From a virus: a stretch of DNA of 64,000 bases. Every line of letters begins with the position of its first letter. The first letter of the stretch is position 1. The position numbers and the translations under genes are program-made. The DNA is taken from positions 1-64,000 of IMG/VR virus record IMGVR_UViG_3300045131_002362; one strand, given 5' to 3'. Positions 4,901 through 31,351 of this stretch are shown here, in pieces. Under the pieces are notes generated by a model that saw only the letters and a list, made by a program, of their open reading frames with translations, was not told the DNA's origin and searched no databases.

Positions 4901-5848
4901 GCTAGGAAGAATCTTGATGCGGCAGCGGAGACCGTCTCGGATGCACTTAAGGCCGCTGGACGAACCATTGCTGCGGGGGCCGTTAAGACCGCGTATGATA
5001 TCGAACGCGTTCGTATGGAGAAGACAACGGACAAGTACACACGTGATGTTCCGGGATATCTCGGTTTCGCCTCTGGCGCGCAGACACTCATGAACCTTGA
5101 GGGCATGCAGCGCGAACCGTTCCAGCCTGACATGGATGCAGCCTGGAAGAAGAAATACGCAGCCGCATACGGAGTGTACTCAAAGCGTCACGGCCTCGGA
5201 GAATACAGAGACAGCTATGTAAAAGGAAACCTCTTCGGACTTGAGGGCGAGGTTGGCAGGGATCTCAAAAAGAGCGTGGAAGGTCCGTTTAAGGATGTGC
5301 TCGAATGGAACCAGAAACTTCGCGGCATGGACTTTTTGGCGCAGAACGGTCCGAGTCTGTCGAATCGGCAGCTTTTACCGGACGCGTCTCTAATTGGTGG
5401 ACTCAATCTGGACGCCCGCAACATGTCCGCCGGCAAGCTGGCATCTGTGCTCGAGATGATCCGTGGTATGGATTACACGAGCTGGACGAAGACGACCGAG
5501 CGTTCGCAGGCTCCGTTCTCCCAGGCACTAGAGTACGGAACGAAGGAAGGTTACAACGCGACGCTTCAGCGCCCGCAAGAAAGTACCGTCGAGATGATGG
5601 CGAAGAACCTCGAATCCGCTTTTGCTGCGATCGAGGCGAGAGTTGACAGGAACGAGGAGAAGCAGTTATCCTTCAATGAGGCGCTCGCGAAGGCCGTCGG
5701 CGATGCTGTATCTGCTGCGATCGAGAAGCAGACACAGGAAGGAATAAACAGGGAAGACGCTCTCGCTGGCAAGATCAATGGCCCGATCGTTGAAGAGTTA
5801 ATGATGCTTGGTGGAAACATTGACGAGTGGCAGCAAAACGAAGAGTAA
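1976..5848 (+). CDS. Tail tape measure protein
   Basis: At 1290 residues this is the largest protein in the window and follows the chaperone pair. It sets tail length and takes part in DNA delivery. The N-terminal 400 residues are helical and rich in Gly/Ala/Ser, like the TP901-type tape measure domain. Hydrophobic stretches occur near residues 405-425 (SFVMLMAALSS) and 760-800 (VMGVVGPFVAFSAAIAAAMS). Residues 440-750 form a Gly/Ser/Tyr/Pro-rich low-complexity linker whose DNA is visibly more AT-rich. At about 1.5 angstrom per residue the tail would be near 190 nm (inference). Confidence 0.9.
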   Translation: MPNVGTITAGMYMDPSGYINGLNTAATATRSFQQGMSGTSFAGFNRGVFASTTLLYGMSRIMSTMSKGMEEYANMLGRIGTVADLTAASVSALAESMKAVSVYQGVSRKDIMGGMYTAAQAGYDSPAEMRAMASSGARLSRASGKEIDVKKSVDLQSGIRQALGIGMSSVSSNRMNDILLKGRDIGRWELDEMAHALGIPLTVWGNQFAGKQSGEETLRQLISVMSVASLSGVSPNMTATGTRRIVEKTLQLNKSGRVGDPLRNALKGEGFGGQNGIMDALNQGGIQYLNTLMKITGGGQTSELTRLGYGSRDLLVLTSALRGKGAKLNEAYEDLGYGNVAGTTERYGEKMRQTYDYSRDRLRAQWEITSQQFMQASVPLLGAFTSMLEGFNKVAQSLPESTKSFVMLMAALSSARFFLNLLGFRGGGFGGVPTGSMMGGAAKGVTGAHSRMPGLVYQNGGQVLRPGHEAQDIQAARMARRQSAASTRSGTMGRADFGLPSDKWAGTAGMPWGTAHTPFKPMMWNEVPIGSRAYSNLDPSRAMQNYGSSWTPYPSVGKAYGPAWYNSPRSEPMNYYQAENMKATSAKWDAARSASNAAYWAPNGTRLPFTSTRQASPSNDRARVLSNTAALGERYLPGQITGKQFTDNGYGPSAQARIRWAAYKRGQSVDFDSGTYGGLSSSAQNYFANRGQGPYSRSVGAQTTLNSMFGPRTIDPLTGKLRATSMPLGLTSPGTSALLRQTPQLSSYYGSGGGGTAVLSQAAGAVGSKLYSLGSAVMGVVGPFVAFSAAIAAAMSFIKGFAYSGRESQKEGGLAKLTGGASGPGFFDTIGHGFELAGTYARNGSKYVGDMQDDYARKHGFVPIGSGRPEDDKGATSLLAGLAGSTPLGMLFRSVFPGNNPIGLGGNRPAVMNDVMGMVRREQMSPGMVARFGKTGSYGGLGLSGLDNFETARPIVEKYMREQLGQEPPDNWNEWARKNLDAAAETVSDALKAAGRTIAAGAVKTAYDIERVRMEKTTDKYTRDVPGYLGFASGAQTLMNLEGMQREPFQPDMDAAWKKKYAAAYGVYSKRHGLGEYRDSYVKGNLFGLEGEVGRDLKKSVEGPFKDVLEWNQKLRGMDFLAQNGPSLSNRQLLPDASLIGGLNLDARNMSAGKLASVLEMIRGMDYTSWTKTTERSQAPFSQALEYGTKEGYNATLQRPQESTVEMMAKNLESAFAAIEARVDRNEEKQLSFNEALAKAVGDAVSAAIEKQTQEGINREDALAGKINGPIVEELMMLGGNIDEWQQNEE

Positions 5849-5865: not shown

Positions 5866-7218
5866 ATGGCGAACGCGGCGGCAAGCTGGGAAACAATGCC
5901 AGACACAGATATGGCGGTGACGGATTACAACATCACGGTCACGGACGGAACGACGCCGACCACGTTTACGTTCAGGGTTCGCCGTCAACCTCTTTCGACG
6001 CGAAACATCGCCACACTCGCCACAACGTACGAACGCTATGTGCTTACGTTCGTTGTCACCGATGTGACGGATCATACGGCGACCACAAGTCCGATGGCGG
6101 TCTACGGCGTCGGATTCACAAACATGCTGATCCGCGCGCTACGTTCTCTGATCTCTGGCGGTGCCTCGATGATCCCGAAGCCAGGCACGCAGATCTCTTT
6201 CGGCAGCTCCACGTACATGATCGTTGAGACGACCGAATTCGCGCAGCTTTCGGAAAATACGGCAGACGTGTTCCTTGTCACATGCAACGTGAAGGAGCCT
6301 TCATCAGGTTCGGCTTATCTGGCATCACAGACTTCGCCTAGGCTTGCGAGGTCGGACGATGTGCCGCCGTGGCAGATGCCCGCCGATGTTGTTTTCGACG
6401 CACAGTCTTCCGAAGGCATGACGCTCGGGTTTGCATATCCTGTGGGCGATGTTGACGGCAAGGTTGATCAGGATGTGACTAGCTTGCGCACTTTGGGTTT
6501 GAATTGGGACGGGAAGATGGTCGCGATCGAAAACTATGCGAACGATCCGTTTTCCTCCCCTCCATCGTTTCTCAAGACAACCGGCACGTTGAAGGTGACA
6601 AAGGCTTTTTTGCGACCGGACATGGATGTCAGCGGCTCTGACTTTTCCCTGAATGCGGGCAAGGTGAACAGCGAGGACATCAGCCTCGACCTTGCTGGGG
6701 CCAAGTTCTTTTTCCCTGTCGGAACGCTCACAGTTTCGGGCATAGGCGCAGTGCCAAAAGTCTACAAAAAGCAGTTGCCCTGGTTCAACAAGACGAAGCA
6801 TCCGCTCGATAAGACATACGGAGAACTCTTCTACGGTTATTCCGGAAAGACGGCAAACTCCGTCGCTGTGAACAAAACGGGCGAGACGATCTTGGTCGCC
6901 TGCCCGATGCGCTACGTCGAGATCTCGGCCACGTTTCTTTTCCGCCCGGAGGGCTTTGCTGTCTGGCTGGCGAATCGCGGATACACAGAACTCGACAGTA
7001 ATACGGACGGCGGCAGAAAAGACATCACCGTAAACGGCAAGACGAAAGAGTGTTGGCTTTCAAAGGCCGGAACCCGATCCGATGACGAACGCATCTGGCG
7101 AGGTTTTACGATGGTTGTGCAGAGTCCCGCGATCAAAAATCTACTTTCAAAGCTGCTAAAGACCGGGAACGATTTTGACTGGGCTACTGCACAAGACGGT
7201 TTCGGGAGTGTCGTTTGA
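5866..7218 (+). CDS. Probable distal tail or baseplate protein
   Basis: A 450-residue, mainly beta protein directly after the tape measure gene. The ATG at 5866 is chosen because AGGAGG sits five bases upstream and the frame overlaps little with the tape measure; the longer start at 5827 lies inside that gene. Position suggests a distal tail protein or tail hub. No motif confirms this. Its stop overlaps the next start (TGATG). Confidence 0.55.
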   Translation: MANAAASWETMPDTDMAVTDYNITVTDGTTPTTFTFRVRRQPLSTRNIATLATTYERYVLTFVVTDVTDHTATTSPMAVYGVGFTNMLIRALRSLISGGASMIPKPGTQISFGSSTYMIVETTEFAQLSENTADVFLVTCNVKEPSSGSAYLASQTSPRLARSDDVPPWQMPADVVFDAQSSEGMTLGFAYPVGDVDGKVDQDVTSLRTLGLNWDGKMVAIENYANDPFSSPPSFLKTTGTLKVTKAFLRPDMDVSGSDFSLNAGKVNSEDISLDLAGAKFFFPVGTLTVSGIGAVPKVYKKQLPWFNKTKHPLDKTYGELFYGYSGKTANSVAVNKTGETILVACPMRYVEISATFLFRPEGFAVWLANRGYTELDSNTDGGRKDITVNGKTKECWLSKAGTRSDDERIWRGFTMVVQSPAIKNLLSKLLKTGNDFDWATAQDGFGSVV

Positions 7219-8000
7219 TGAGCGCGCCGAACATGATAGGTCAGGGGCCAGTCTGGAACTATGGCCACAACGCCTCTTTCGGTTTGTGGGTGCGGCCCGT
7301 AAAGGGATCGAAGCTCTTCGTGTGCCTCTATCGCGGTGTAATCTTCTCGCGCAAAACCACATTCGTTTGGCAGGAGGTGAAGAATGATGAGGCAGCGCCA
7401 GGCGAGACTCCCGCACAAGATGACGGCAAGCCAAAGTTCGATTTTAAGATGAAGATCGAACCGGCACTGAACGTTTTTTCGCCGTGCGGATCTCTCGTTC
7501 CGTATCCCGATTTTCCGATCTTCGTCTTCGCATCTGAAGGAAATGTGATTTACTCAGATGCCTCGATGAAGACGTTTAAGAAGTTTGGTGAACTTCCCGC
7601 ATCCGAGTTTTACTCCAAGATCGGAGAAGGAGCGGCGCAATCCTTCGACCTTCCGGACATCGACAAGAGCGTGTACGAGGGAACCTCTGAGGAACTCGAC
7701 GAAACGAAACGCGGCCTGCTCACGCCGATCTTTATGATCTCGGTCGAAAAGGAGCCAAACGGTTCGTTGTCGATCGCAGAGATTCTCGACATTCGCGCAT
7801 CCGACACGTTCACGTTTGCTGAAAAGGCGGCGGAAGAAACTCCGGGTGAGGGCGACGAAGATCCGTGTGAGCGGGACGGAGAAGATCCTGCCGACGGGCG
7901 TACAACGGTTGGCGGAGATCCGAACCTTGGGGATGTGGAGCCGACAGAAGACGTAGTGGAAGAGGAGCAGGCTGTTGATCCCTGTCCCGAAGACGTGTAA
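7218..8000 (+). CDS. Tail-associated protein with acidic C-terminus
   Basis: A 260-residue protein translationally coupled to the previous gene (TGATG). The first 190 residues look globular (GLWVRPVKGSKLFVCLYRG near the start). The last 60 are strongly acidic with several Pro and Cys (DPCERDGED, DPCPEDV). Probably a minor tail or baseplate component given its neighbours; function not recognised. Confidence 0.55.
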   Translation: MSAPNMIGQGPVWNYGHNASFGLWVRPVKGSKLFVCLYRGVIFSRKTTFVWQEVKNDEAAPGETPAQDDGKPKFDFKMKIEPALNVFSPCGSLVPYPDFPIFVFASEGNVIYSDASMKTFKKFGELPASEFYSKIGEGAAQSFDLPDIDKSVYEGTSEELDETKRGLLTPIFMISVEKEPNGSLSIAEILDIRASDTFTFAEKAAEETPGEGDEDPCERDGEDPADGRTTVGGDPNLGDVEPTEDVVEEEQAVDPCPEDV

Positions 8001-8047: not shown

Positions 8048-10687
8048 ATGAAACTCACAAATCTCGAACTGAACGGAACGCTACTGTTCACCTCTGCCGG
8101 TGAAACGAAGTCTGTTGTCATGACAACGGACGCCGATGGCATTCCGTACAGCGCCTATTACGTCATGCCGAACGGTTACGTCTCCTGGCTGTCCGTCACG
8201 GTTGTAGACAATGTGTTCGCCATGAAGGCGACCAGCAACCTGTTTTCCGAAACGTCGAGGAGTGTGGTTGTGAGCTTCAGATGTATGCCGACGGCCGGCG
8301 GCACACTTCAGACGACGAACGTCACTGTTACGCAGGCGGCTGACACGGTTGCCCTGACGTTTGACCCGACACAGGTCTCGCTGGCGTACGACGCGGGGGC
8401 CACCGACGACGTGACCGTGACCGGCATACCGTCGGGCGCAATCGTCACTGTCTCAGCTCCCGAATGGCTCACGGCAGCTTTCTCTTCCGCAACAACTCTT
8501 GCTGTGACCGCCGCGCTTAACGTTTCGGAGGATGACCGTGTCGGCACTGTCACCGTCGGTGTTGACGGAAGATCTTTCTACCTCACCGTCACGCAGGCCG
8601 CAAATACCTCGACCATCACGTTTGATCCGACAGAGGTATCGCTGGCGTATAGCGCAGGGGCCACCGACGACGTTACAATCACCGGCATACCCTCCGGCGC
8701 ATCCGTGACTGTCTCTGCGCCCGAGTGGCTCACGGCCTCTGTGCTTGCTGGCGTTCTGACGCTCACTGCGACAGAGAATCCTAGCGGTTCGGAACGCACA
8801 GGAACAGTGAACCTTGTCGTTGTGGGGAAGACGTGGCCGCTGACTGTGGCCCAAGCAAAGAACCCCTTCCTGTACGGGCCGCTCACGCTTGACGAGCAGT
8901 CCTATGACGCGCCATACTCCGGAGGATCTGTGACGGTCACGGCGACAGCCATGCCGTCGAACGCAAGCACCTTCTCGATCGCCGTGAAGCGGTCCGGATC
9001 TTGTACAGCCTGCGAAGACTCAGAAAACGTGATCACGTTCGAGCAACTGAGCGCGACATCTGTGAAGATCATTGTAGGTGCGCAGGATCTGTTCGACGGG
9101 ATTGAACGTGGCTTTACGCTGACGTTTACAGCCGGAAACGAGACGGCCACTTTCACGATCACGCAGGAGGCGCCCGACGCGTATCACCGGTATTATGGCG
9201 TTGGAGACAAGTTCTTGCGCTCGGCAGTTTCCGAGAAGACACCGACCTATCTCGCCCCGTCGACCGTACAGCAGCTTTTGGCTGAGTTGAAAACGACCGG
9301 ATGGACACAGCTCGAGTCGCTGAGGGCTCCTGTATTGGTTGCCACCAATCTCGATTCCGTGCCGAAGAAGATCCTCTCGCATGAGGCGTTCAAGGCGTGC
9401 CATGGGCACACGACGGTCGATGGCACGACCTTCCACCAGGTCTCGATGGGCGCCGCCGTATACAGGTTCATTTTCGATCCTGCGGCATACGGCCTTGTGC
9501 TGAAGGGCATCCGTTTCATCGTAAGATCCGACGCATATTGCGCCGAGGGGCTCCGTGTAGCGCTGGACACGACAAGCACCTCTGACACGCCCTCGGAAGA
9601 CTGGTTGGCCATAAGGGAAGGCACAGCAGGCTTTTTCAAGCCTGGTTGTGCCCCGCGAGTTTTGCGGGACGCGGGATATTACGGCGCTTCGGAAACGGTC
9701 GTGTTCTCGCCGATCAACGTCACGATCTCGGCAGAGACTCGACTGTACCTGTACCTGACCCTTGAGGACTACCGTGGGATCATCAACGGCTGGGTTTACG
9801 GCTCCGGTCTTATCAATCCCGTGTTCGACTTCTTCGCTGCGGATGAGGATACGGTCGAGGGAGTAGAGAATTATGACACGATCGCCCAGTCGGCGATACA
9901 GAAAGACGGATACCCGCTCGTGACGGACGGTACGGTTCTGTCGCCGATGGCAGATCCGGCGAATCCTTCCGAGGGCCGCGAGATTGCGATCCGCGCTGTC
10001 AATTTCGGCACGTCGCCCTCGAAGAACGATCCGACGCCTGTCGAGGCAGCGAGCGCGATCGCCTTCCTTGCCGCGCGAATCGCCGAGAGCGGTATGGCGC
10101 AGGCGGATCTGTCGGCCACCCCGATCACGGCCTGGCAGGCGCACCAGTTTGGACTGGGCTGCGCCATCTGCCGGCAGATCATCGGTGCAACAGCGCCCTT
10201 CTCTCAGCGCCTGATCCAAACGGTTTCGCCTCTGGCCGTGCTGTGCGCCTTGCCGCCAAACTACACGCCAGCGTTCGTCAGACTGACTCACAGGGCCGGG
10301 CAGGCGACTTTTGTCGTTTCCGGCGCGGATGTCCGGCTGTCGGTTTACTGGATCGCGTCGAAGGCCGTGACGCTGAAAGAACTCGGCGACCTCTATGCGG
10401 CTCCGGCGTTCTCTCTCGGCGAGTCAAAGATTGAGGGCGGCGGAATGACGGCGGAACTGCTCGGCAGCAAGCGCATTCCGTCTTCGGTCGCCGCGCTGAC
10501 GGAGGTCGCCATCGAGATTGTGCCGCCTTCCGCGCGCTGGGGCACGCTGCTCATCGTTCCGTGGATCGCCCGTGTGACGGCAACGTCGCTGGTGGCGAAT
10601 GAGCCGATCGGTCTTGTGGGTATTGAGGTTCTCGAAAACGAAATCGCCGGAACCGCCTGGGTCCCGGACGTGAAACTGGAGGCATGA
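8048..10687 (+). CDS. Tail adhesin with four BACON-like domains
   Basis: An 879-residue protein. Four beta-sandwich repeats occupy about residues 12-96, 101-183, 188-270 and 279-374. Repeats 2 and 3 share SAPEWLTA, and all four end in a VTQA-type strand, the pattern of BACON domains found in Bacteroidota surface proteins and the crAssphage tail region, where carbohydrate or mucin binding is proposed. The remaining 500 residues are unrecognised and may form the fibre body. Start at ATG 8048 with GGAG upstream; a TTG at 8021 is possible. The stop overlaps the next start (ATGATG). Confidence 0.75.
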   Translation: MKLTNLELNGTLLFTSAGETKSVVMTTDADGIPYSAYYVMPNGYVSWLSVTVVDNVFAMKATSNLFSETSRSVVVSFRCMPTAGGTLQTTNVTVTQAADTVALTFDPTQVSLAYDAGATDDVTVTGIPSGAIVTVSAPEWLTAAFSSATTLAVTAALNVSEDDRVGTVTVGVDGRSFYLTVTQAANTSTITFDPTEVSLAYSAGATDDVTITGIPSGASVTVSAPEWLTASVLAGVLTLTATENPSGSERTGTVNLVVVGKTWPLTVAQAKNPFLYGPLTLDEQSYDAPYSGGSVTVTATAMPSNASTFSIAVKRSGSCTACEDSENVITFEQLSATSVKIIVGAQDLFDGIERGFTLTFTAGNETATFTITQEAPDAYHRYYGVGDKFLRSAVSEKTPTYLAPSTVQQLLAELKTTGWTQLESLRAPVLVATNLDSVPKKILSHEAFKACHGHTTVDGTTFHQVSMGAAVYRFIFDPAAYGLVLKGIRFIVRSDAYCAEGLRVALDTTSTSDTPSEDWLAIREGTAGFFKPGCAPRVLRDAGYYGASETVVFSPINVTISAETRLYLYLTLEDYRGIINGWVYGSGLINPVFDFFAADEDTVEGVENYDTIAQSAIQKDGYPLVTDGTVLSPMADPANPSEGREIAIRAVNFGTSPSKNDPTPVEAASAIAFLAARIAESGMAQADLSATPITAWQAHQFGLGCAICRQIIGATAPFSQRLIQTVSPLAVLCALPPNYTPAFVRLTHRAGQATFVVSGADVRLSVYWIASKAVTLKELGDLYAAPAFSLGESKIEGGGMTAELLGSKRIPSSVAALTEVAIEIVPPSARWGTLLIVPWIARVTATSLVANEPIGLVGIEVLENEIAGTAWVPDVKLEA
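8360..8737 (+). repeat. Two 117-bp direct repeats encoding BACON units
   Basis: Bases 8360-8476 and 8621-8737 are clearly related copies, 261 bases (87 codons) apart. Both encode TFDPT-V-LAY-AGATDDVT-TGIPSGA. Most differences are third-position changes, which points to a fairly recent in-frame duplication under protein-level selection. Confidence 0.8.
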
Positions 10688-12750
10688 TGAAAACGATTCT
10701 TGCGATATGGCTGGGCGCGACGGTTTTCGCCTGTGCGGCGAACATGGCGGATTTTGACGGCGACGGGATGCCGGACGTGTGGGAAGCTGCGTTCGGCCTG
10801 CGCACCAACAGCGCAGCGGGAATAGACGGGGCGTACGGCGATCCGGACGGCGACGGGCTGCCGAACATAGCCGAGTACCGCGCGGGCTATACTGTGGCAT
10901 CTGGTAGCGTCTACAGCAACTACACATGGGCTGTCGCCGGTTTGGCGCCAACGAATGCTTACAGCGCTGGCGGTACTCTTCCGGACTACTGGCATGTGGC
11001 GGGCAGCAACCGCGTGCATCTCGGCTGGATGTTCACCGACCATGATTTCGTCGACTCCTCTTGGGAGGCGCAGGCGACGAATCGGGCGTCTCTCTACGTC
11101 CCCGACGAGGGGGACGTGTATGGAGGCTGGAGTGCATGGGAGCGCTGTCGCATGTCATCAGCCAAGGTTTCGCCAACCGTCGAGCTGGACCTGACGTATA
11201 TCGGACCGCGAAACGTAGACACAGTCACGATCAGCGCCTTCAGCGATCTGACCGAGCCAGCAGATGTCGTCTTCCGCGTGACCGGGTACAATCGCACACA
11301 CACGCTCACCAATGTCGTTTCTGGCAAGCTGAAGCGAAGTTCAGTCTACTGGCTTGCAGTGCCGGGGACAGGCGCATGGACGCAGGGGGACCCGATCGGA
11401 ACGCTCGTGTCGCAGCCGATGTCGTGGGACAGGACAAAATTGGCCATCGAGCTTCTGCCCACAGACGGACACCGATTTGTAATGACACTGCCGACGCCGG
11501 TTTTTGAACAGACCGGTGTAACGCCGTCTCGTGTGCGCATACGGCGCAGCAGGATTGATGGTCTACAGACCTATCAGACTGTCATTCTGGACAGAAGCTA
11601 TACGCACGACAAACTGCTAACACCTATGGATTATTTGAACGTTCTCGGCTTGGATTGGGCTTTCACGAACGTTCCCAGAGGTTCGGTTAGCCTCGACATG
11701 ACAACGTACGATGTGTATTTCGGACAAGCTGATGTTCTGACGAATAACGTGCGGGCGCTCACCTTCACGAACTGGTTTGGTTCCTATCCGTTCACCTCTG
11801 ACCCTGTCTCGCCGAAGAACGGCGCTTATATTTATTCGGCTCGTCCGGAGTTTAGATGGAAGAACTCTCGAGTTGGGTCTTACGATTCCTTTGGCAGTTT
11901 GAATTTGCAAAATGTCGGCAACACAGCCTTTAAACTGGAAATTCTTTCGGGCACAAATATAATCTACAGCACGGAAGAAATGCTGTTGCCACCGTCAGAT
12001 CCAGACACGAGAGATCATACGTGGCAAGCTCCGGTGTTTGCAGGTGGGACATTACCGAACGGCGTTACACTGAACGAAAACGCGCTTTATTCTTGGCGTT
12101 TCGCATGCTTAAACGCAAAATTCACTAGCTCCTACGGAACCTGGTCTCCGTTGTCATATTTCAGGTGGGCAGTAAACAGCCCGATGGGGTCTTCTGGGTA
12201 CGGTGAAGTGAAGGCGCTCGTGAAATACCGTGGGCCGGCAACAAATCTGAGCGGACGTGTCATCACGCAGGCGTACACGCATCGAGGCTTCTGCGGAGAT
12301 CCCGCCGGACAATACACGCTGACGGACTCCGGTGTGGTCTCGATGACCAATTCTTCGACCACGGCGACAAACTCTGTTTTGCGAGGACTCACCCCGAGCG
12401 CCTCTGCCGGTCCGTACTACGTTTGCGCTTTCATCGACAGCAACGGAAACGGAACGCGAGACGCATGGGAGTCTTGGGGCTATGCCAACAACCGGGGCGC
12501 AACCGATATTCTGCCCTTCGACGCGAGGCCGTTTCCGGTCGCCTATGCCGTGCAGGACACGATAGCCTCCGTGGTGATCGAGGATGCCGATACAGACCGC
12601 GACTGGTTCCCGGACGCATGGGAGTATGAGGGCAGCGCATCGGTCACAAACGCGTTCCTCGCACCAATCGGCCCGTCTGCCGACTGGGACAATTCCGTCG
12701 ACACCCGCGTGAACCCGTATCTGATCACGAACGGCGTGTTCAGAAACTGA
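10687..12750 (+). CDS. Exported protein with calcium-binding DxDxDG motifs
   Basis: A 687-residue protein. Residues 1-18 form a signal peptide, with VFAC resembling a lipobox. DFDGDGMPD (22-30) and DPDGDGLPN (52-60) match thrombospondin-3/EF-hand-like calcium loops. Related loops recur near the C-terminus (DSNGNGTRD, DADTDRDWFPD). Such proteins are common on the surface of Verrucomicrobiota/Kiritimatiellota bacteria. It lies between adhesin and fibre genes, so it may be a tail fibre or a host-derived surface protein. The ATG at 10687 fits GGAGG better than the ATG at 10684. Confidence 0.65.
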   Translation: MKTILAIWLGATVFACAANMADFDGDGMPDVWEAAFGLRTNSAAGIDGAYGDPDGDGLPNIAEYRAGYTVASGSVYSNYTWAVAGLAPTNAYSAGGTLPDYWHVAGSNRVHLGWMFTDHDFVDSSWEAQATNRASLYVPDEGDVYGGWSAWERCRMSSAKVSPTVELDLTYIGPRNVDTVTISAFSDLTEPADVVFRVTGYNRTHTLTNVVSGKLKRSSVYWLAVPGTGAWTQGDPIGTLVSQPMSWDRTKLAIELLPTDGHRFVMTLPTPVFEQTGVTPSRVRIRRSRIDGLQTYQTVILDRSYTHDKLLTPMDYLNVLGLDWAFTNVPRGSVSLDMTTYDVYFGQADVLTNNVRALTFTNWFGSYPFTSDPVSPKNGAYIYSARPEFRWKNSRVGSYDSFGSLNLQNVGNTAFKLEILSGTNIIYSTEEMLLPPSDPDTRDHTWQAPVFAGGTLPNGVTLNENALYSWRFACLNAKFTSSYGTWSPLSYFRWAVNSPMGSSGYGEVKALVKYRGPATNLSGRVITQAYTHRGFCGDPAGQYTLTDSGVVSMTNSSTTATNSVLRGLTPSASAGPYYVCAFIDSNGNGTRDAWESWGYANNRGATDILPFDARPFPVAYAVQDTIASVVIEDADTDRDWFPDAWEYEGSASVTNAFLAPIGPSADWDNSVDTRVNPYLITNGVFRN

Positions 12751-12766
12751 TCCGAGGGGCGTGTTG

Positions 12767-12796
12767 TTGATGCAGGGCGCCGCCGAGTGTTAATAT
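12767..12796 (+). promoter_or_regulatory. Candidate promoter in the 12.75-12.82 kb gap
   Basis: TTGATG at 12767-12772, an 18-base spacer, and TAATAT at 12791-12796, 25 bases before the GTG start at 12821. It lies in the only sizeable non-coding gap between tail genes. Confidence 0.4.
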
Positions 12797-12820
12797 CCCC
12801 GCGTACGAAAGGGGAGCACA

Positions 12821-13375
12821 GTGAACCAGATTTTCCGCATAACCGTCGGGGTTGAGACGCTTCAAGGGCGCCTTCAGGCTGTCCGTGTCGGTAAGGGATA
12901 CTCCTGCATATTTCACATCTCTGGCGTAGCCTACGCCGAAGGTGAAGCCGCGCCCAAAATCTGGATCGGATCGACAGAAGCCGACACGCTTTTTTGGACC
13001 GGTGTTTGGGACAGTGAAAAGGGCGTATGGGTTGTCGCTGTAAATAGTGATGCGAGCGCAACTGTGGCGACGCGCTCCTATGCCCTCACGATGACCGGTG
13101 ACGACGGAACAGGCGAGGGGGTGCGTGAGTACATCGCCGGCCAAGGTCCGTTTACCGTTTACTCCAATATCGCCGGAGGTGGTGCTGAGGGTGGCGACGA
13201 AGGCGAGTCTCTCGGTGAGCAGATTGTTGCGCTAAACGCTCGGCTCCTCATTTTGGAACAGCGCTTTGAGGATCTTGCGACCCTCGGAATGTTTAACGGT
13301 GAGCAAGCCTTCGATCACGAGATGCGCGCGCAGGTCGAGGCCATCACCAACAAGTTGAGGGGGGCACCGTTATGA
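12821..13375 (+). CDS. Baseplate or fibre-base protein with coiled coil
   Basis: A 184-residue protein starting at GTG 12821 behind AAAGGGGAGCA. The first 110 residues are beta-rich and resemble the N-terminal domain of upper-baseplate proteins (FRITVGVETLQG, IWIGSTEAD). The C-terminal 55 residues form a coiled coil (IVALNARLLILEQRFEDL), suited to trimerisation. The stop overlaps the next gene (ATGA), so it may be the anchor for the large fibre that follows. The functional call is inference. Confidence 0.5.
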   Translation: MNQIFRITVGVETLQGRLQAVRVGKGYSCIFHISGVAYAEGEAAPKIWIGSTEADTLFWTGVWDSEKGVWVVAVNSDASATVATRSYALTMTGDDGTGEGVREYIAGQGPFTVYSNIAGGGAEGGDEGESLGEQIVALNARLLILEQRFEDLATLGMFNGEQAFDHEMRAQVEAITNKLRGAPL

Positions 13376-16023
13376 TTTTCAGAATGATTGGCTTTATCGT
13401 AATCTTGGCAAGCTCGTGCATTGCGCAGGAGACCCGCATGGACTGGAAGTGGGGCCGGCCAGGTGTGATGGTCGAAACGAACATTCCGACGACAGTCACA
13501 ATCAACGGCGTACCATGGTGGACTGCTACGAACGGGGCTTTTAACGTGCAGGGCGGCTTAGGGCTGGACTCGCAGGGCGTGACCAACATCTTCAACGGGA
13601 TGATTGTCGAAGCCACCAACGGCTTCGTGACGACCCCCGGCGTGAGCGGCATCGTGAACGCGGCGATCTCCAACCTGCCCCCGTCAGGCATGAGCGCGAC
13701 CGACGTGACCAACATTTCAACGGTAGTCGCAAATAGCATCGTGACGGCGGCGACGAACGCAATCATTCAACCTACCGGTGTTCCTTACTGGATTGGCACG
13801 AACGGCGCCGAGTTCGCCACGCTGGAGCCGGACGCGCAGCCGCTGGTGTGGCGGGTTGAATCAACCAATGTGTGGCAACTGACTGTGACGGAGGCCTTGA
13901 CGGCAGGGGGCACAATATACAAGTCCGTCGGTACGTACGTCTCTGATATGCCGTACCCTATCCAGCCCGGGTCCTGGAACCATATCGGAGCGGTTACAGT
14001 CAATCCTAATGTTGTAGATGTCTGTACCATTCAAGCGTTTTTTGGCGTATTCGATACTGAGTACGACACAGCGATTTCAATAAGCACCTATATCGGTGAT
14101 GCCACAGGTGCAGCGACACTAGTGTATGCACCGGTGATCTACACCAACTACGTCACCCGCCTTGCGGCGACGAACGACCTAGCTGAATTCCTCTCCATCG
14201 CAGATTACGCGTTGTGGCAGACCAACATCCTTGACATGATCCAAGCGATCAGCAACGACGCCTTCAACGCGCAGAGCACAGCGGACGGCGCGAGGGGTGC
14301 GGCGAATCAGGCGGCGCAAGATGCAGGCACAGCGCTCCAGCTCATCAGCGGGGTAGGTGGGCTTGAAGAGCAGATTGACGCCAAGCTGGACGCGACCGGA
14401 GGAACGGCGAGCAATCTCACCGCAGTCGGCACGTTCTCGCTGTTCGGCTATCCGTGGTCTTGGAATCCCGAATTTCATACCTATGACGTGGGCTTGGACG
14501 GCGGGGTCACGGGGCAGCTTTTTCAGGAGCAGCACATCTACGTCAAGAATGGCACAGACGTTCCGCTCACCGAGGGGATGGCGGTTTGCGTCGCTGGCGG
14601 ACAAGGCGCGAACGTAGTTGTCGCTCCTGCCTCCTGTGACTCCCCGATCTGCAAATGGAACACGATCGGTTTGGTTACTCAGACGGGTGGGATCGCGGTG
14701 GGTGAACACGGCTACGTCGTGACCTCTGGAAACATCAACGACCTCGCCGGATATGGTCACTTCGATGTGTCTAATACGCTATGGCTGGCAACATCTGGCG
14801 TGGTAACGAATATCGAACCGGCGGCTGGCTCCGTGGCAGCAAAGGTAAAGATCGGCACCGTGCTGCGCTCACACAACACGCAGGGCCGCATATTCGTCAG
14901 CGTGCTAGCGATACCGAACGCGGCTGACGTTGGCGCGGTGGCGGTGAACAATGGAAGCGGAACGAACCTCACCGTTGCCGGATTGTCAACGCCGTACGGG
15001 TACACGAATAAGTACATGTGCGCGAACGGATCGACGATTTGCGCGAGCATGGCGCTACTTTCACCAACGACCAATTTGCAGATCAAGACGCAAAACGGCG
15101 ACATCCAGATTTCACCGGCTGGCAACATGGGAATAAACGCGACGCCTAGTGCTTCGTATTCGCTCAACTTAGCCAGCGGCATAAATGCAGGCGGAAACGT
15201 GCAAGCCAGCTATTTTGGTACTGGAAACTATGTCCTTTTTTCGACGCGTGGACTTTACCGTGACAGCCAGAACGCCGGTCAGTTTGTTTTCGACACGGCG
15301 GTTGCTGGTGGGGCGAACCCAATAATCCTTGGCAGCGGCGGAACTGGATACAGCAACGGTCAAGTGAACGTCCGGTTGGATGGTCGAAACTATGCGTCGT
15401 TCACCACGAACAAGATATGGTTCGGTTTGAACAGCAATGTCGTGGTGGACATAGAAGGAACGGTATCAGCAACCAACTTCGTATTCACGCGCCCGCGCTG
15501 GATCGACGAAAAGGCGACGGGGCTTTCGTTATCGCCTACTCCGTCCGCAGAACCGCAGCGCATCGAGATACCGGCAGGCAGCGGGGTTCACGCGCTGGCG
15601 TTTTCGATTGGAGACAATGCAGCCGGTTCGCTCCAGTGGCAGCACGGACTGGCAAAGACGAACGCGCTATACCAGAATCTGTACTACAGTCCGCACACGC
15701 ATACGCGAGCGCTTTCAACGGACGGCAACGATACCGCGACGTGGGTTGTCAAATGGCAGGTGGCAGGCGTGAACGGTGCGTACTCAGAAACGCTTGCACG
15801 CACCACGACGGTGACTTATGCGGAGGCGAACACGCATTACATTTGCGACTTCGGAGTTGTCACGAATAATGCGCTGTCTGGCAAGGATTCCGTTATCAGC
15901 CCCTTCACGCTTTACCGCATCGCCGGCAGTAACGAGGTAGCAGCCGACGAGGCCGTTGTTGATAGCATCGACTTCCATATTCCGGTCGCTGAGTACGGCT
16001 CGGTTGTGGCTAACGGCGATTAG
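13372..16023 (+). CDS. Large tail fibre protein with signal peptide
   Basis: An 883-residue protein. Residues 1-20 form a signal peptide (hydrophobic GFIVILASSC, Ala at the cut site). The body is rich in Thr, Asn, Gly and short beta repeats, including a DNDC-like segment near 560-620 and GNMGINATPSASYSLNL typical of fibre shaft regions. A mid-protein domain (360-500) contains IYVKNGTDVPLTEGMAV, as in tail-fibre collar domains. It is coupled to the coiled-coil protein upstream. A signal peptide on a fibre is unusual. Confidence 0.65.
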   Translation: MIFRMIGFIVILASSCIAQETRMDWKWGRPGVMVETNIPTTVTINGVPWWTATNGAFNVQGGLGLDSQGVTNIFNGMIVEATNGFVTTPGVSGIVNAAISNLPPSGMSATDVTNISTVVANSIVTAATNAIIQPTGVPYWIGTNGAEFATLEPDAQPLVWRVESTNVWQLTVTEALTAGGTIYKSVGTYVSDMPYPIQPGSWNHIGAVTVNPNVVDVCTIQAFFGVFDTEYDTAISISTYIGDATGAATLVYAPVIYTNYVTRLAATNDLAEFLSIADYALWQTNILDMIQAISNDAFNAQSTADGARGAANQAAQDAGTALQLISGVGGLEEQIDAKLDATGGTASNLTAVGTFSLFGYPWSWNPEFHTYDVGLDGGVTGQLFQEQHIYVKNGTDVPLTEGMAVCVAGGQGANVVVAPASCDSPICKWNTIGLVTQTGGIAVGEHGYVVTSGNINDLAGYGHFDVSNTLWLATSGVVTNIEPAAGSVAAKVKIGTVLRSHNTQGRIFVSVLAIPNAADVGAVAVNNGSGTNLTVAGLSTPYGYTNKYMCANGSTICASMALLSPTTNLQIKTQNGDIQISPAGNMGINATPSASYSLNLASGINAGGNVQASYFGTGNYVLFSTRGLYRDSQNAGQFVFDTAVAGGANPIILGSGGTGYSNGQVNVRLDGRNYASFTTNKIWFGLNSNVVVDIEGTVSATNFVFTRPRWIDEKATGLSLSPTPSAEPQRIEIPAGSGVHALAFSIGDNAAGSLQWQHGLAKTNALYQNLYYSPHTHTRALSTDGNDTATWVVKWQVAGVNGAYSETLARTTTVTYAEANTHYICDFGVVTNNALSGKDSVISPFTLYRIAGSNEVAADEAVVDSIDFHIPVAEYGSVVANGD

Positions 16024-16051
16024 GCGTAAACGATAAAGGGGGATTTGAGAC

Positions 16052-16675
16052 ATGTCAGGATCAATTGCAAAAGCACAGCTCGAAAGTATTAACGCGAGGC
16101 TGACTGGGCAAGAGCTTCGGGACAAGCCAGAGTTCGATGGGCATCGCAGCCTTGTCGATTCGGCAATCGAATCGAGTAACGGGGCGGTGGACAAGGTGGC
16201 CTCCATGGCCGAAACGCAGGGGCGCCTTGTGGCGTTCATTGTGCAGCAGTCCTTACGTGAGCCGGACAGGCTGGCCACCGCTTTCCAGAAGGCGCACATC
16301 TGTCATTTCCAGACCGACGGGAAAGGTAATTTCATCGACCCGCCGTGGCAACCCGCAATCGAAGACGCGATCGAGGTAGCGTTCCGCGAGCATAGCAAGG
16401 CCGCTGACGCCCCGGAGTCGAGCATTGAGATAAAAGTGCCCGTCATCGGTACGCTGCTCATCGGGAAAGGGAAGGCTGCCGCTGCCGTTGCAGGAGCGCT
16501 CGGCAAGGTCGCTATGTATGCCATAGTTGTCGGTGCGTTGCTCTACTGGCAGAGCGCTCGCTTCCAGGAGTTCGTGGAGCGTCGTTTCGCAGTGGCATCT
16601 GACGAGAGGGCGCTGAACAACGATCGGGCTGAAGGAATCCACCAGGTCATAATCGAAAAAGGAGACTCAGAATGA
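16052..16675 (+). CDS. Single-span membrane protein, possible lysis function
   Basis: A 207-residue protein with helical N-terminal 130 residues, one membrane segment at about 150-170 (KVAMYAIVVGALLYW) preceded by an Ala/Gly stretch, and a charged C-terminus. It comes after the fibres and before a lipoprotein-like gene, where holins and spanins are often found. The long N-terminal domain is unlike a simple holin. GGGGGA precedes the ATG. A weak promoter-like pair (TTGTGG-N17-TAAACG) lies at 16004-16032. Confidence 0.45.
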   Translation: MSGSIAKAQLESINARLTGQELRDKPEFDGHRSLVDSAIESSNGAVDKVASMAETQGRLVAFIVQQSLREPDRLATAFQKAHICHFQTDGKGNFIDPPWQPAIEDAIEVAFREHSKAADAPESSIEIKVPVIGTLLIGKGKAAAAVAGALGKVAMYAIVVGALLYWQSARFQEFVERRFAVASDERALNNDRAEGIHQVIIEKGDSE

Positions 16676-17304
16676 AGATCACACTTATCGCAAGCACAAC
16701 CTGCGCCTACAGCGCCGCAGCTCTCAAGATCGTCCGAACTGCCGAGTTTCGGGCGTGGCTCAAAGAGAGCGGACACACCATCGTCGCCGTCGATGTGAAC
16801 AGCGCCGCAGGCAAGGCGGCTCTCAAGGCTTGCGGCTGCAAGGGCGCGTGCAAGACACCTGTCTTCTGTATCGCGGCGGAGAAGCCTTACAGCATCAGCT
16901 ACAGGCCCGCGAAAGGTGAGGCGTCCGCCGCCGACCTGATTGCCAAACTGGGTGCGGCGTGCGGATCGTGCAACTGGAAACCGAGTGTTTGCCCGACGTG
17001 CAAGCGGGCGCTTGGGTGTCTGCTGCCGCTCGGGTTGCTGGCGTCGATGCTGTTCACGGGCTGCGTCGTAACGAAAGGGGCGTGCGTCCCGAAGCCGGCC
17101 CCCGAGCCGCCGGAAATCAGCTTCTTCCGTGTCGCATTCCTCTACCCGTTCTCAGTGGAGGACGTGACGTTCCCCGGTGGCGTCGCGTTGAAGAAGTACG
17201 GCACGTCCGGCGGCGCGGCTGAGCTTGTCCCCCTTGTCGATGCCAGCGGGAAGCTCGTCGGCACGATGATCGGCTCCGGGGCGAAAGCGGTTGTGGCACC
17301 GTAA
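16672..17304 (+). CDS. Glutaredoxin-like domain fused to lipoprotein-like C-terminus
   Basis: A 210-residue protein. Residues 1-80 look like a small thioredoxin/glutaredoxin fold: beta start KITLIAST, then CAYS at the active-site position (a monothiol CxxS) and TPVF before the third strand. Several Cys follow (CGC, CGSC, CPTC). Residues 118-133 form a hydrophobic segment ending in LFTGC, a perfect lipobox. A Pro-rich segment (PKPAPEPPE) and 75 further residues follow. No start codon is seen just before the lipobox part, so the two appear fused. A spanin-like role is one option. It overlaps the previous gene by four bases. Confidence 0.5.
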   Translation: MKITLIASTTCAYSAAALKIVRTAEFRAWLKESGHTIVAVDVNSAAGKAALKACGCKGACKTPVFCIAAEKPYSISYRPAKGEASAADLIAKLGAACGSCNWKPSVCPTCKRALGCLLPLGLLASMLFTGCVVTKGACVPKPAPEPPEISFFRVAFLYPFSVEDVTFPGGVALKKYGTSGGAAELVPLVDASGKLVGTMIGSGAKAVVAP

Positions 17305-17314
17305 GGAGAGCGCA

Positions 17315-17929
17315 ATGGAGTACGGGCAGGGCTTTTGGTGTGTCGAGGACGGCATACGTCTGGAGCAGCGGACGTACCCGTCTACGCGCGGCTTTGAGTA
17401 TGGCGCCGTCGATCCAGTCGATGTGACCGGCGACTGCGGCGAGTTCCTCTTGCGCGACTGGTGTTTCGACTACGCCGTGCCTGGCACGCAGACAACGCTG
17501 CGCATCACCATCAAAGGCCACCCCTGCCCGATCCTCCACAAGAATGCTTTCGATTTCGACTGGGCCAGTATACCCCGACCGCTACGTGGCGTCACATGCG
17601 ACAAGGCCGACTACCGCATTCGCGCCGGATGCCTGCCACACGACATGGGTTTCTGCGTCCATGAGTTCTGGCCAAACATGGATCGGGCCTTCTGGAACAG
17701 GATGCTTTTTGAGATCATGGAGGCTTACAGCGTGACGTGGGAAGAGGTGGGCGCGGCGACTGGTGCAAAGGCCAAAGCGAAGATGCTCGCTCGCTATTTC
17801 GGCGACCGAGCGCTACGCAACGCTGTTTGGGCGGCCGTCACGGTTGGCGGGCCGTTCTGCTGGCGGAAGACGCCGGAAGAGATTGCGATATACGAGAAGA
17901 TGCTGCGCGTCGAGATCGCCCCGGTATAA
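17315..17929 (+). CDS. DUF1353 family phage protein
   Basis: A 204-residue protein with the DUF1353 pattern: DFDWASIPR near residue 85 and CLPHDMGFC near 107, where the family usually has GA-LHDYLY. Members are common in tailed phages near lysis and tail genes; the biochemical role is not established. The ATG at 17315 follows AAGGAGAGCGCA, ten bases after the stop of the previous gene. Confidence 0.65.
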   Translation: MEYGQGFWCVEDGIRLEQRTYPSTRGFEYGAVDPVDVTGDCGEFLLRDWCFDYAVPGTQTTLRITIKGHPCPILHKNAFDFDWASIPRPLRGVTCDKADYRIRAGCLPHDMGFCVHEFWPNMDRAFWNRMLFEIMEAYSVTWEEVGAATGAKAKAKMLARYFGDRALRNAVWAAVTVGGPFCWRKTPEEIAIYEKMLRVEIAPV

Positions 17930-17944
17930 TCGACGCAGCCGACG

Positions 17945-17973
17945 TTGAACTTTCAGCGCCCAGCGCGTATCAT
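17945..17973 (+). promoter_or_regulatory. Sigma70-like promoter for the 18.0-kb gene
   Basis: TTGAAC at 17945-17950, a 17-base spacer and TATCAT at 17968-17973. This gives a leader of about 60 bases to the ATG at 18041, which has AGGAGAG upstream. It is the best-formed promoter in the left arm and serves a single gene that ends in a terminator. Confidence 0.6.
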
Positions 17974-18040
17974 TGCCTTTTAGAGAATTTCGGTTTCCGC
18001 TGGTGCGGCTTCCGGATCACAACACAATAGGAGAGAAGAG

Positions 18041-18568
18041 ATGAAGAAGACACTGGTTATCATCGCGGTCGCTTGCCTTGCCCTTCAGGGGCTTATGGCC
18101 GCAGACCGGTTTACGGAGACGATCACCGTCGCCGCAGGCGCCACGAACGCCACCGTCACATTCCCGCTGTACCGTGCTGACGGGCCGCCGGCCACCACGA
18201 TCGACACGCTTTGCGTTGTCGTCGATAGCGGTTCCGGAACGGGCGTAGTAACGTTCGCAAGCTACGACTATGGTGTCGCGACGACCATCGCAACGTCAGG
18301 CTCGATCAAGGACGGCGAGGCTTATGCGACGCAGCCGTACAATACGTTGAGCGCGCTGTACACGTACCCGGTTGTGGAGAGTGTCGTGACCGGAAATGTT
18401 GTTCTTGCGAGACAGAATCTCCAGACCAATTATACCGTGACAGTTGCCTCGCCGATTGCACGACAGTTGAAGGTCAGTGTGGCACAGGCCGCAGTTGCTG
18501 ACGCCACCGTCTACAAGGTGGCTGTGTACGTGAAAGAGAATCCACCGGTCCCGTTGCATCTAAAGTAG
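18041..18568 (+). CDS. Small exported beta-rich protein
   Basis: A 175-residue protein with a classic signal peptide (MKK, then LVIIAVACLALQG, cut after LMA). The mature part is beta-rich with many Thr/Val/Ala and has no Cys cluster. It has its own promoter and its own terminator, so it is expressed as a separate unit at the end of the late arm. Options include a surface exclusion protein, a periplasmic factor or a virion decoration protein. No family recognised. Confidence 0.55.
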   Translation: MKKTLVIIAVACLALQGLMAADRFTETITVAAGATNATVTFPLYRADGPPATTIDTLCVVVDSGSGTGVVTFASYDYGVATTIATSGSIKDGEAYATQPYNTLSALYTYPVVESVVTGNVVLARQNLQTNYTVTVASPIARQLKVSVAQAAVADATVYKVAVYVKENPPVPLHLK

Positions 18569-18595: not shown

Positions 18596-18640
18596 CCGCC
18601 CTTCCGGATTCGCTCCTTTTCCGGAAGGGCGGATTTTTCG
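18596..18640 (+). terminator. Rho-independent terminator between converging arms
   Basis: A perfect 13-bp stem, CCGCCCTTCCGGA (18596-18608) with TCCGGAAGGGCGG (18620-18632), has a 12-base loop and is followed by ATTTTTCG. On the other strand the hairpin lacks a U-tract, so it mainly ends + strand transcription. Confidence 0.9.
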
Positions 18641-19692: not shown

Positions 19693-20436
19693 CTATTCTT
19701 TGTTTTTTGATTCGTTCGTTGTGAAACCACACTTGCGACATTGGATCGGACGGTATCCGAGCAACACCGCAAATCTGAGCAGACGGCGCCAAGGACGACG
19801 CCACTCTTTTAACCAGTCGCCTGTCGCCCTGAATCCGCTGCCGCACTTGGCGTCGTACTCGTTGCAGCAGAATGCAACTTTGCCGTCACAGGTAATCATA
19901 CAGGTATACTGCGTCATGCAGAACCGTGGCGATTTAACCGGACCGACATCGACTGAGCCGGCGCGGTTCATGAGAGGTGGGACCGGCCCATCGATGACGG
20001 TCATCGCACCAACGCTTCGACGGACTGTGGACTTTCGCGGCGTATCGTGACGCGTGACAAGCAGCGTGGTCACATACCGCGAAAGAATCTCCTCGATTGC
20101 GCTGTCGAGATAGTCGCCGTTTGTGGTCACGGTGATTTTGTTGTCGGGGAGGACCTTTCTGACTTCTCGTAAACATGCGACAAGTCCGCTTAAGTCAATC
20201 AACGGCTCGCAGTAACCGCCAAGCCAGATGCCGCCCTTAAATCCGTGTAGAGGTGCAAGGCGCTTAGCCAACTCATTCGGGCGGAGAAACGCAGAGTGTC
20301 TCTGATGATAAGTCACGGGGCAATATGTGCAGCGCCGATTACAGACCGTGCTCATCTCGAACACGATGTCTACAGGGTCGGCAAGCACTGTGCCGAGCAG
20401 CAGCTTCAGGCGGCGGAATGGTTTTTTGTCGTTCAT
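19693..20436 (-). CDS. Radical SAM/SPASM-like protein
   Basis: A 247-residue protein. CNRRCTYC at about residues 32-39 is the CxxxCxxC motif that binds the 4Fe-4S cluster and S-adenosylmethionine. GGIWLGGYCEPL and ITVTTNGDYLD match later radical SAM barrel strands. The C-terminal third has a SPASM-like Cys set (CMTQYTCMITCDG, FCCNEYDAKCG, CRKCG) for extra clusters. Such enzymes modify peptides or RNA. The substrate is unknown. It is in an operon behind promoter 20705-20736 with MazG and HNH genes. Confidence 0.8.
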   Translation of the reverse strand: MNDKKPFRRLKLLLGTVLADPVDIVFEMSTVCNRRCTYCPVTYHQRHSAFLRPNELAKRLAPLHGFKGGIWLGGYCEPLIDLSGLVACLREVRKVLPDNKITVTTNGDYLDSAIEEILSRYVTTLLVTRHDTPRKSTVRRSVGAMTVIDGPVPPLMNRAGSVDVGPVKSPRFCMTQYTCMITCDGKVAFCCNEYDAKCGSGFRATGDWLKEWRRPWRRLLRFAVLLGYRPIQCRKCGFTTNESKNKE

Positions 20437-30944: not shown

Positions 30945-31018
30945 TGGCTGCGCCGGAAGGACTCGAACCTTCTCACCGGGGATCAAAGCCCCGTATGCTG
31001 CCATTACATCACAGCGCA
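30945..31018 (-). tRNA. tRNA-Gln (TTG)
   Basis: A 74-base cloverleaf including an encoded CCA. Acceptor TGCGCTG pairs with CGGCGCA (one G-U), discriminator G. The anticodon stem CGGGG/CCCCG encloses CTTTGAT, so the anticodon is TTG, reading CAA. The T arm carries GGTTCGAGTCC. Its 5' end is one base after the tmRNA 3' end. Confidence 0.95.
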
Positions 31019-31019
31019 A

Positions 31020-31351
31020 TGGTGGAGGCGGGGGGAATTGAACCCCCGTCCGCCGATTGCTATACGTTGAAGCTACGCGCGTGTCCCGATTAGGTCGGGC
31101 AACCGAGAGCGACCCGGCAACAACTCCGAGCCTTCCACCATCCCGTTCCTTGGTCTACGGGCAACCGTCACGTTCCCTTTCGATGATTCGGTTCACCGCC
31201 GCTCAGGGTGCAGCGGGAACTATAGCGGCGATTAGGCCGCGATTTTCTCAGGCATGGCCTTTGAAGTTTTGCCTTGATTTTTACGTGGCCATCTAGGCTA
31301 CCACGGCACGCATCAACGTAATCGAAACCGGCGTCGAAACCTGACGCCCCC
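31020..31351 (-). ncRNA. ssrA: tmRNA (ssrA)
   Basis: A 332-base tmRNA on the minus strand. The 5' end GGGGGCGTCAGGTTTCGAC and 3' end CCCCGCCTCCACCA are the standard tRNA-like ends: GGGGGCG pairs with CGCCTCC (one G-U), and the T loop has GGTTCAATTCC. The likely resume codon is GGC (31273-31271). The tag reads GKTSKAMPEKIAA and ends at TAA 31234-31232, inside a GCGGC/GCCGC stem as usual. tmRNA frees stalled ribosomes and marks the peptide for proteolysis. Phage copies are known but uncommon. Confidence 0.95.

Follow-up and report, generated by a model that had tools for sequence, protein, structure and literature searches.

Predicted Sec signal peptides on tail-fibre and host-derived proteins of a putative Kiritimatiellota phage, and their recurrence in phages of the same host class

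Background

Tail fibres of bacteriophages are taken to be made and joined to the tail in the cytoplasm, and in other phages domains of the BppU type attach receptor-binding proteins to the baseplate. Phage lambda encodes an exported protein of host-envelope type, Lom, among its tail genes. The superinfection-exclusion lipoproteins Llp of phage T5 and Cor of phage T1 are likewise phage-encoded and exported, as described in an excerpt of PMC9586334. Here we describe three proteins with predicted Sec-type signal peptides in the late arm of a viral genome, IMG/VR record IMGVR_UViG_3300045131_002362, of which positions 1 to 64,000 form the stretch analysed (the window): a tail fibre of 883 amino acids (aa), a protein of 687 aa with homology to giant surface proteins of the host group, and a small protein of 175 aa. 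The analysis suggests that the virus is a tailed phage of Kiritimatiellota, and similar predicted signals recur in other phages of the host class.

No paper on tail fibres of Kiritimatiellota phages was found in the literature, and those parts of phage genome papers on signal peptides and tail fibres that were available contained no description of signal-bearing fibres. The available part of a paper on rumen phages mentions one or two signal peptides in two Bacteroides phages (PMC5723332).

Predicted signal peptides of three late-arm proteins

The three open reading frames (ORFs), all on the plus strand, lie where the original prediction had placed them: at 10684 or 10687 to 12750 (688 or 687 aa, according to the start taken), 13372 to 16023 (883 aa) and 18041 to 18568 (175 aa). 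Its claim that each begins with a Sec-type signal peptide also holds at the level of prediction, the signals being canonical and the gene starts supported. The starts of the 687-aa and 883-aa genes each form an ATGA overlap with the preceding stop codon, and the 175-aa gene has an AGGAG Shine-Dalgarno site upstream. The predicted signals are MKTILAIWLGATVFACA for the 687-aa protein (10687 to 10737; cleavage before A), MIFRMIGFIVILASSCIA for the fibre (13372 to 13425; cleavage before Q) and MKKTLVIIAVACLALQGLMA for the 175-aa protein (18041 to 18100; cleavage before A), which would leave mature proteins of 155 to 865 aa. All three display n-, h- and c-regions and small residues at -3 and -1, as in substrates of signal peptidase I, albeit with the fibre borderline relative to one false positive (see below). 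Met24, considered as an internal start for the fibre, is disfavoured by the ATGA overlap and by the frame being open ahead of it. The usual lipobox, [LVI][ASTVI][GAS]C, is absent at the 687-aa and 883-aa starts, where only a relaxed pattern is found (VFAC and ASSC).

Signals were predicted with a home-made scorer of n-, h- and c-regions that was checked on 42 genes of E. coli K-12. The ten genes labelled as secreted scored 9.0–10.7 and the top cytosolic gene 5.6, with one membrane protein, pdeC, as a false positive (11.1). Among the 88 phage ORFs of at least 60 aa, the 175-aa, 687-aa and 883-aa proteins rank first, second and fourth, with scores of 10.37, 8.93 and 8.22. The third rank belongs to a head protease of ClpP type (8.7), which is surely a false hit; since it outranks the fibre, the 883-aa signal is the weakest of the three taken alone. 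Shuffled N-termini (n=8,800) reached at least 8.22 in 17 cases, at least 8.9 in nine and at least 10.3 in one. On the basis of scores, ranks and shuffle counts, the three signals are very probably real as predictions, the one on the fibre being the least sure on its own.

A tail fibre with a predicted signal its relatives lack

The 883-aa gene sits in the tail block of a tailed phage, in the late arm downstream of the tape-measure-type gene. Residues 364–514 of its product (14461 to 14913) correspond to a domain of the tail fibre of Pseudomonas phage Rollin (34% over 158 columns, E 6e-15 in a single blastp comparison), and through the Rollin fibre to 17 records of named phages, including Nitrincola phage 1M3-16 and Roseobacter phage CRP-6. 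The remainder of the protein is without a match, and the full fibre found none among named phages by tblastn at 1e-5. By this homology and position, the 883-aa protein is classed as a phage tail fibre.

A scan of the viral_contigs set with the fibre domain gave 312 relatives, of which 80 were kept; three of these frames run off the contig, leaving 77 closed homologues that include many near-duplicates and hence are not independent events. None of the 77 has a signal-bearing start (score of at least 5), nor do any of the nine annotated fibre N-termini that could be read from named phages (nine of 11 loci with a complete coding sequence). That exported fibres would be unexpected, as had been stated from the sequence of the window, is thus borne out. 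No close relatives of the entire 883-aa protein were found in viral_contigs. A search of 345 host-class genomes also gave no match, which is weak evidence as the search had no positive control.

The sole signal-bearing large gene among 234 viral control genes (L086:911-2803, 630 aa) belongs to a locus with the same fibre domain. This gene could represent the same habit in another host group.

A captured module of a giant host protein

The 687-aa protein (10684 to 12750 in its longer, 688-aa form) has a different origin. Scanning of species genomes identified nine relatives, all in metagenome-assembled genomes (MAGs) of Kiritimatiellae or Verrucomicrobia, and eight of the nine matches are near full length. 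The similarity to the giant host proteins is 35–41% identity over residues ~12–682. The hosts carry this module at the C-terminus of giant proteins, the six longest frames of which measure 3,429–3,648 aa, and when eight host genomes were searched, a single long frame held the best matches in each, apart from G006 with two. A phylum-wide search gave some match at E 1e-3 in 206 of 387 genomes, many of them to a short TSP3 motif only. The phage module (~670 aa) is without the preceding ~2,500 residues of the host giants and without their last 100–150. The giants are marked by N-terminal repeats and a C-terminal tail and the 688-aa protein ends before that tail, so by sequence it is to be classed as a piece of the giant-protein family and not as a member.

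The predicted signal of the phage protein is its own, and directly precedes a first calcium-type (TSP3-like) motif, DFDGDGMPDVWE (10750 to 10785), which aligns with the host motif. This is the calcium motif noticed in the original prediction; it is real but weak, with a TSP3_bac score of 14.6 bits against a Pfam cut-off of 25. A second calcium-type motif near the end, DADTDRDWFPDAWE (12583 to 12624), is highly conserved in the host giants. The protein is thus captured host material equipped with its own predicted signal peptide. Of the suggestion that host genes had been captured as fibres, the part concerning the 687-aa protein therefore stands, whereas the 883-aa protein is a phage fibre without counterpart in the host-class genomes searched.

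A second copy was identified in a separate phage-type cluster, L143 of genome G491, as an 804-aa frame with a signal score of 10.3. It is 30% identical to the window protein (E 2e-55) and shares 75% identity with the giant protein (an 8,801-aa frame) encoded in the same host genome. The nearest relatives of the window protein, by contrast, are in other hosts, at 36–40%. The module was thus captured twice, separately, by unrelated phages. In the same cluster (L143, reverse strand, 14984-18548) the captured module runs straight into an overlapping BppU-like frame without a well-supported start; one gene, overlapping genes, a frameshift, a fusion or a pseudogene are all possible.

No close relatives of the 688-aa protein were found in viral_contigs. 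Its one weak phage match, MT835778.1 (L013, "Bacteriophage sp."), was rejected, as the ORFs of that record were read as SusC/SusD-type Bacteroidota genes and not as phage genes. AlphaFold gave the 688-aa protein a mean predicted local distance difference test (pLDDT) value of 46, with residues ~370–590 near 70, and Foldseek returned tandem FnIII-like matches with low TM-scores for this model, which is only a hint of an FnIII-like fold. Giant secreted TSP3 proteins of 3.4 to more than 16 kilo-residues (longest frame 16,552 aa) occur widely in this phylum and seem uncharacterised; we saw them at L004, L007, L008, L010, L011 and L012 as well as in genome frames.

Recurrence in phages of the host class

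A terminase search (PF03237) gave a match in 78 of the 332 genomes of the class of genome G003, taken as Kiritimatiellia from the record titles. Sixty loci were fetched and two more had been found earlier with the window terminase; 39 of these 62 were dropped as too short. In the 23 usable clusters, with MAG genes called by our own script and some starts wrong, we counted genes that encode at least 250 aa and score 8 or higher for a signal. Such genes were found in 16 clusters (19 of 122 genes), three of them doubtful (L152, L181 with 442 aa and L140 with 283 aa). Under the same start rule, 80 viral control loci yielded one signal-bearing gene in 234. Fisher's exact test gives p 8e-9 for this difference, and 2e-7 without the doubtful three, values that are optimistic because some loci are related. 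Two homologous fibres that had been dropped by the length rule, of L128 (871 aa) and L130 (593 aa), also have strong signals (11.5 and 11.8), and their clusters contain terminase-, portal- and capsid-type genes, portal and capsid being read from gene order and sequence.

Other classes of Verrucomicrobiota served as a further control, set membership being inferred by subtraction from the terminase-hit genomes; 31 of 40 loci were too short. Three of the nine usable clusters (four of 49 genes) had a signal-bearing gene, and by eye the hits of L200 and L225 lie among host-type genes and that of L214 is ambiguous. A habit of the whole phylum was considered and set aside: the fibre-position genes of L207 and L210 (868 and 753 aa, before the tape-measure-type gene) are without signals, and phage P8625 is reported to have no signal peptides (PMC4642752).

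Predicted signals on such genes are therefore a habit common to unrelated phages of one bacterial class. This goes beyond what could be seen in the window alone; recurrence in unrelated phages, with some of the proteins keeping tail-attachment or collar domains, favours a role in the virion.

The recurrence also bears on the prosaic explanation that the signals are due to chance or artefact, whether from misplaced starts, host DNA in the contigs or a predictor that is too lenient. The scorer is indeed home-made, our MAG gene calls include wrong starts, and there is one clear false positive in the phage. Yet the same scorer and start rule gave the single hit in 234 control genes, the source record of the window carries a direct terminal repeat of 280 bp, as would a complete phage assembly, the starts of the long genes overlap upstream stops, and the signals recur at one place in homologous genes, viral_contigs records included. 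We consider an artefact very improbable.

Domains behind the signals

Several of the signal-bearing proteins can be recognised as tail proteins. Behind the signal, L191 has a Phage Tail Collar domain (2.3e-19) and L140 a Phage_tail_C domain (2.2e-11), both above the Pfam cut-off; L128, L130 and L194 contain collagen repeats, and L191, L194, L128, L130, L181 and L184 match PHROG tail or tail-fibre families. A common domain directly follows the signal in seven of the signal-bearing proteins. In one of them it matches BppU_N (PF10651; E 3.1e-5), the other six remaining below family level, and we refer to the domain as BppU-like. Its profile, run against the collected loci, identified 15 ORFs, all in the class set, and in 11 of these the domain starts just after the predicted cleavage site (signal score of at least 6.5). 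Scans of viral_contigs with L140 and L157 gave five relatives, three of them new (L237, L238 and L239), all five with signals (7.1 to 10.5); the domain lies right behind the predicted cleavage site in four of four viral_contigs relatives.

Comparison of related pairs suggests that the signals are maintained. The first 20 residues of L157 and L184 are identical at 12 of 20 positions against 76% elsewhere, and those of L128 and L130 at four of 17 against 55%, while both pairs keep high signal scores. In L146 and L180 the first 20 residues are about as alike as the rest (8/20 against 40%). As the residues drift while the scores stay high, our reading is that selection acts on the signal, rather than one sequence being inherited.

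These observations also bear on the possibility that the N-terminal segment is left uncleaved, either anchoring the fibre in the inner membrane or remaining part of the virion as a peptide active on membranes or attaching to the tail. Hydrophobic N-termini are compatible with either use, and the score of the 883-aa protein is modest. However, the cleavage sites are good, with small residues, the BppU-like domain is placed just behind them, and the segment is absent in all 77 closed homologues of the fibre domain. Retention of the segment is accordingly rather unlikely in our judgement.

Three signal-bearing fibre-position proteins, L176, L187 and L194, end in a region with a GDSGSP motif, which presumably resembles that of trypsin-type proteases. 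The region has no Pfam match, and L176 and L194 share 26% identity in it over 332 columns.

A proposed route of assembly

We propose that the fibre and adhesins are processed and folded after export from the cytoplasm, and that they join the tails at lysis. Late in infection the three proteins would be synthesised with their N-terminal signals, leave by the host Sec channel and lose the signal to signal peptidase. They would then fold outside the cytoplasm, where calcium and secretory chaperones should be at hand, and at lysis the mature fibre and adhesin chains would meet the tails made in the cytoplasm and attach to them. The 883-aa protein would be the fibre, the 687-aa stolen host module a host-binding or host-mimicking accessory, and the 175-aa protein a small strand-rich accessory. 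Removal of the signal would leave a mature chain that begins at the BppU-like domain, an arrangement in favour of export with later joining to the tail, for which lysis is the simplest moment. Folding outside the cytoplasm is in keeping with the TSP3-like calcium motifs and with the host origin of the 687-aa module. We rate this route at slightly less than an even chance.

Several points weigh against it. Seven of the 23 usable clusters are without a signal-bearing gene of at least 250 aa. Of the 15 BppU-like ORFs, three (L137, L141 and L143) have no signal, and L164 has a signal-like stretch without a proper start. The signal of the fibre scores below the ClpP-like false positive of the same genome, and the 687-aa protein has no recognisable tail-attachment domain. 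Finally, we know of no mechanism by which exported fibres would find tails before lysis.

The main rival to joining at lysis is that the proteins, once exported, are retained in the host envelope or on its surface, where they would obstruct or hide receptors to prevent superinfection, or keep progeny from sticking to cell debris; the captured module may then be a decoy or dominant-negative copy of a surface protein that serves as receptor. The 687-aa protein, as host surface material without a tail domain that was captured twice, fits this explanation better than the fibre does, although its start has no usual lipobox and, to our knowledge, the giant protein is not known as a receptor. T5 Llp offers a precedent, blocking the receptor FhuA from the periplasm according to the excerpt of PMC9586334. 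Retention in the envelope leaves unexplained the collar, collagen-shaft and BppU-like domains behind the signals, and as a general account we hold it to be unlikely, albeit less so than an uncleaved segment. Both explanations may hold for different proteins. The roles suggested in the original prediction, coating of the host surface or a block to superinfection, may apply.

Extended to the class, assembly by export would mean that tailed phages of Kiritimatiellota, in several unrelated lineages, complete the structures for host recognition outside the cytoplasm, with fibres, baseplate-attached adhesins and stolen surface modules of the host passing through Sec, maturing in the envelope and being added to tails at lysis. 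This wider proposal is somewhat more tentative than the route itself. If true, tail fibres would have a second assembly route, linked to a single bacterial class, by which phages could employ host surface modules whose folding requires an environment outside the cytoplasm. Cleavable export signals before attachment, shaft and collar domains across the host class would imply either another assembly route or an unrecognised use of fibres on the infected cell. Repeated capture of the module makes the host giant protein a candidate phage receptor or cohesion partner; as far as we know, phage receptors in the phylum Kiritimatiellota are undescribed.

Genome setting and neighbouring genes

The source record of the window measures 86,708 bp, and the direct repeat of 280 bp shared by its ends makes a complete phage genome probable. 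In the late arm, genes for terminase, portal, head protease and a virion structural protein are followed by a tape-measure-type gene (1976–5848) and a tail-tip and fibre region up to 18568. The opposite arm encodes a DNA polymerase, helicases, and primase-like and clamp-loader proteins; no integrase match was found among the ten of its genes that were scanned. Close relatives of the terminase were not found in viral_contigs.

The 175-aa protein, strand-rich and of secreted type, is encoded by the last gene of the late arm, which is closed by a terminator-like hairpin at 18598 to 18640 on the plus strand (read by eye). It has no relative in named phages by tblastn, and AlphaFold gave no usable model of the mature protein (mean pLDDT 37). 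Scans of Pfam, PHROGs, NCBIfam and PDB sequences with the 687-, 883- and 175-aa proteins returned nothing above cut-off. Signal-bearing proteins of 129–213 aa adjoin the capsid-type gene in three other clusters (L128:8534-9175, L130:6921-7310 and L143, reverse strand, 6884-7426); they match the 175-aa protein in size and are perhaps decoration proteins.

Between the two long signal-bearing genes lies a gene for a 184-aa protein without a signal (12821 to 13375, plus strand), which from its position may have a tail role. A 210-aa ORF (16672–17304), either a single fused gene or a pair, looks glutaredoxin-like at its start, then cysteine-rich and finally similar to a lipoprotein. Immediately beyond the late arm, a 247-aa ORF on the minus strand (19693–20436) has a CNRRCTYC motif, which we take to resemble that of radical SAM enzymes. 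A tRNA-Gln gene adjoins a transfer-messenger RNA gene (tag AAIVPAAP) at 30945–31351.

Comparison with known systems

Lambda Lom, as an outer-membrane barrel encoded by a single gene, is neither a fibre nor an instance of a fibre-wide habit. T5 Llp and T1 Cor share with the window proteins that they are phage-encoded, their export being described (PMC9586334, excerpt) and that of the window proteins predicted. Llp is a small lipoprotein, whereas the window proteins would measure 155–865 aa once cleaved, have domains of fibre or surface-module type and are without a typical lipobox.

In the giant TSP3 proteins of Kiritimatiellae it is the C-terminal module to which the 687-aa protein corresponds, but the phage protein comprises ~670 aa against at least 3,400 and is missing the host C-terminal tail of ~100–150 aa. 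It also has a weak match to the MtsD-type cohesion proteins (NF047639; 20.7 bits, E 9.8e-5), far below the cut-off of 800 bits, and is not assigned to that family.

The 883-aa protein is similar to the tail fibres of Rollin, 1M3-16 and CRP-6 over residues 364–514 and unmatched in the rest, and differs from the nine annotated N-termini and the 77 closed viral homologues in its signal. The BppU baseplate proteins (PF10651) are the closest described counterpart of the domain shared by signal-bearing host-class proteins, through the BppU_N match in one of seven; the 184-aa protein of the window is unmatched by the profile. The host-class domain differs from that of the known baseplate proteins in being preceded by a signal peptide.

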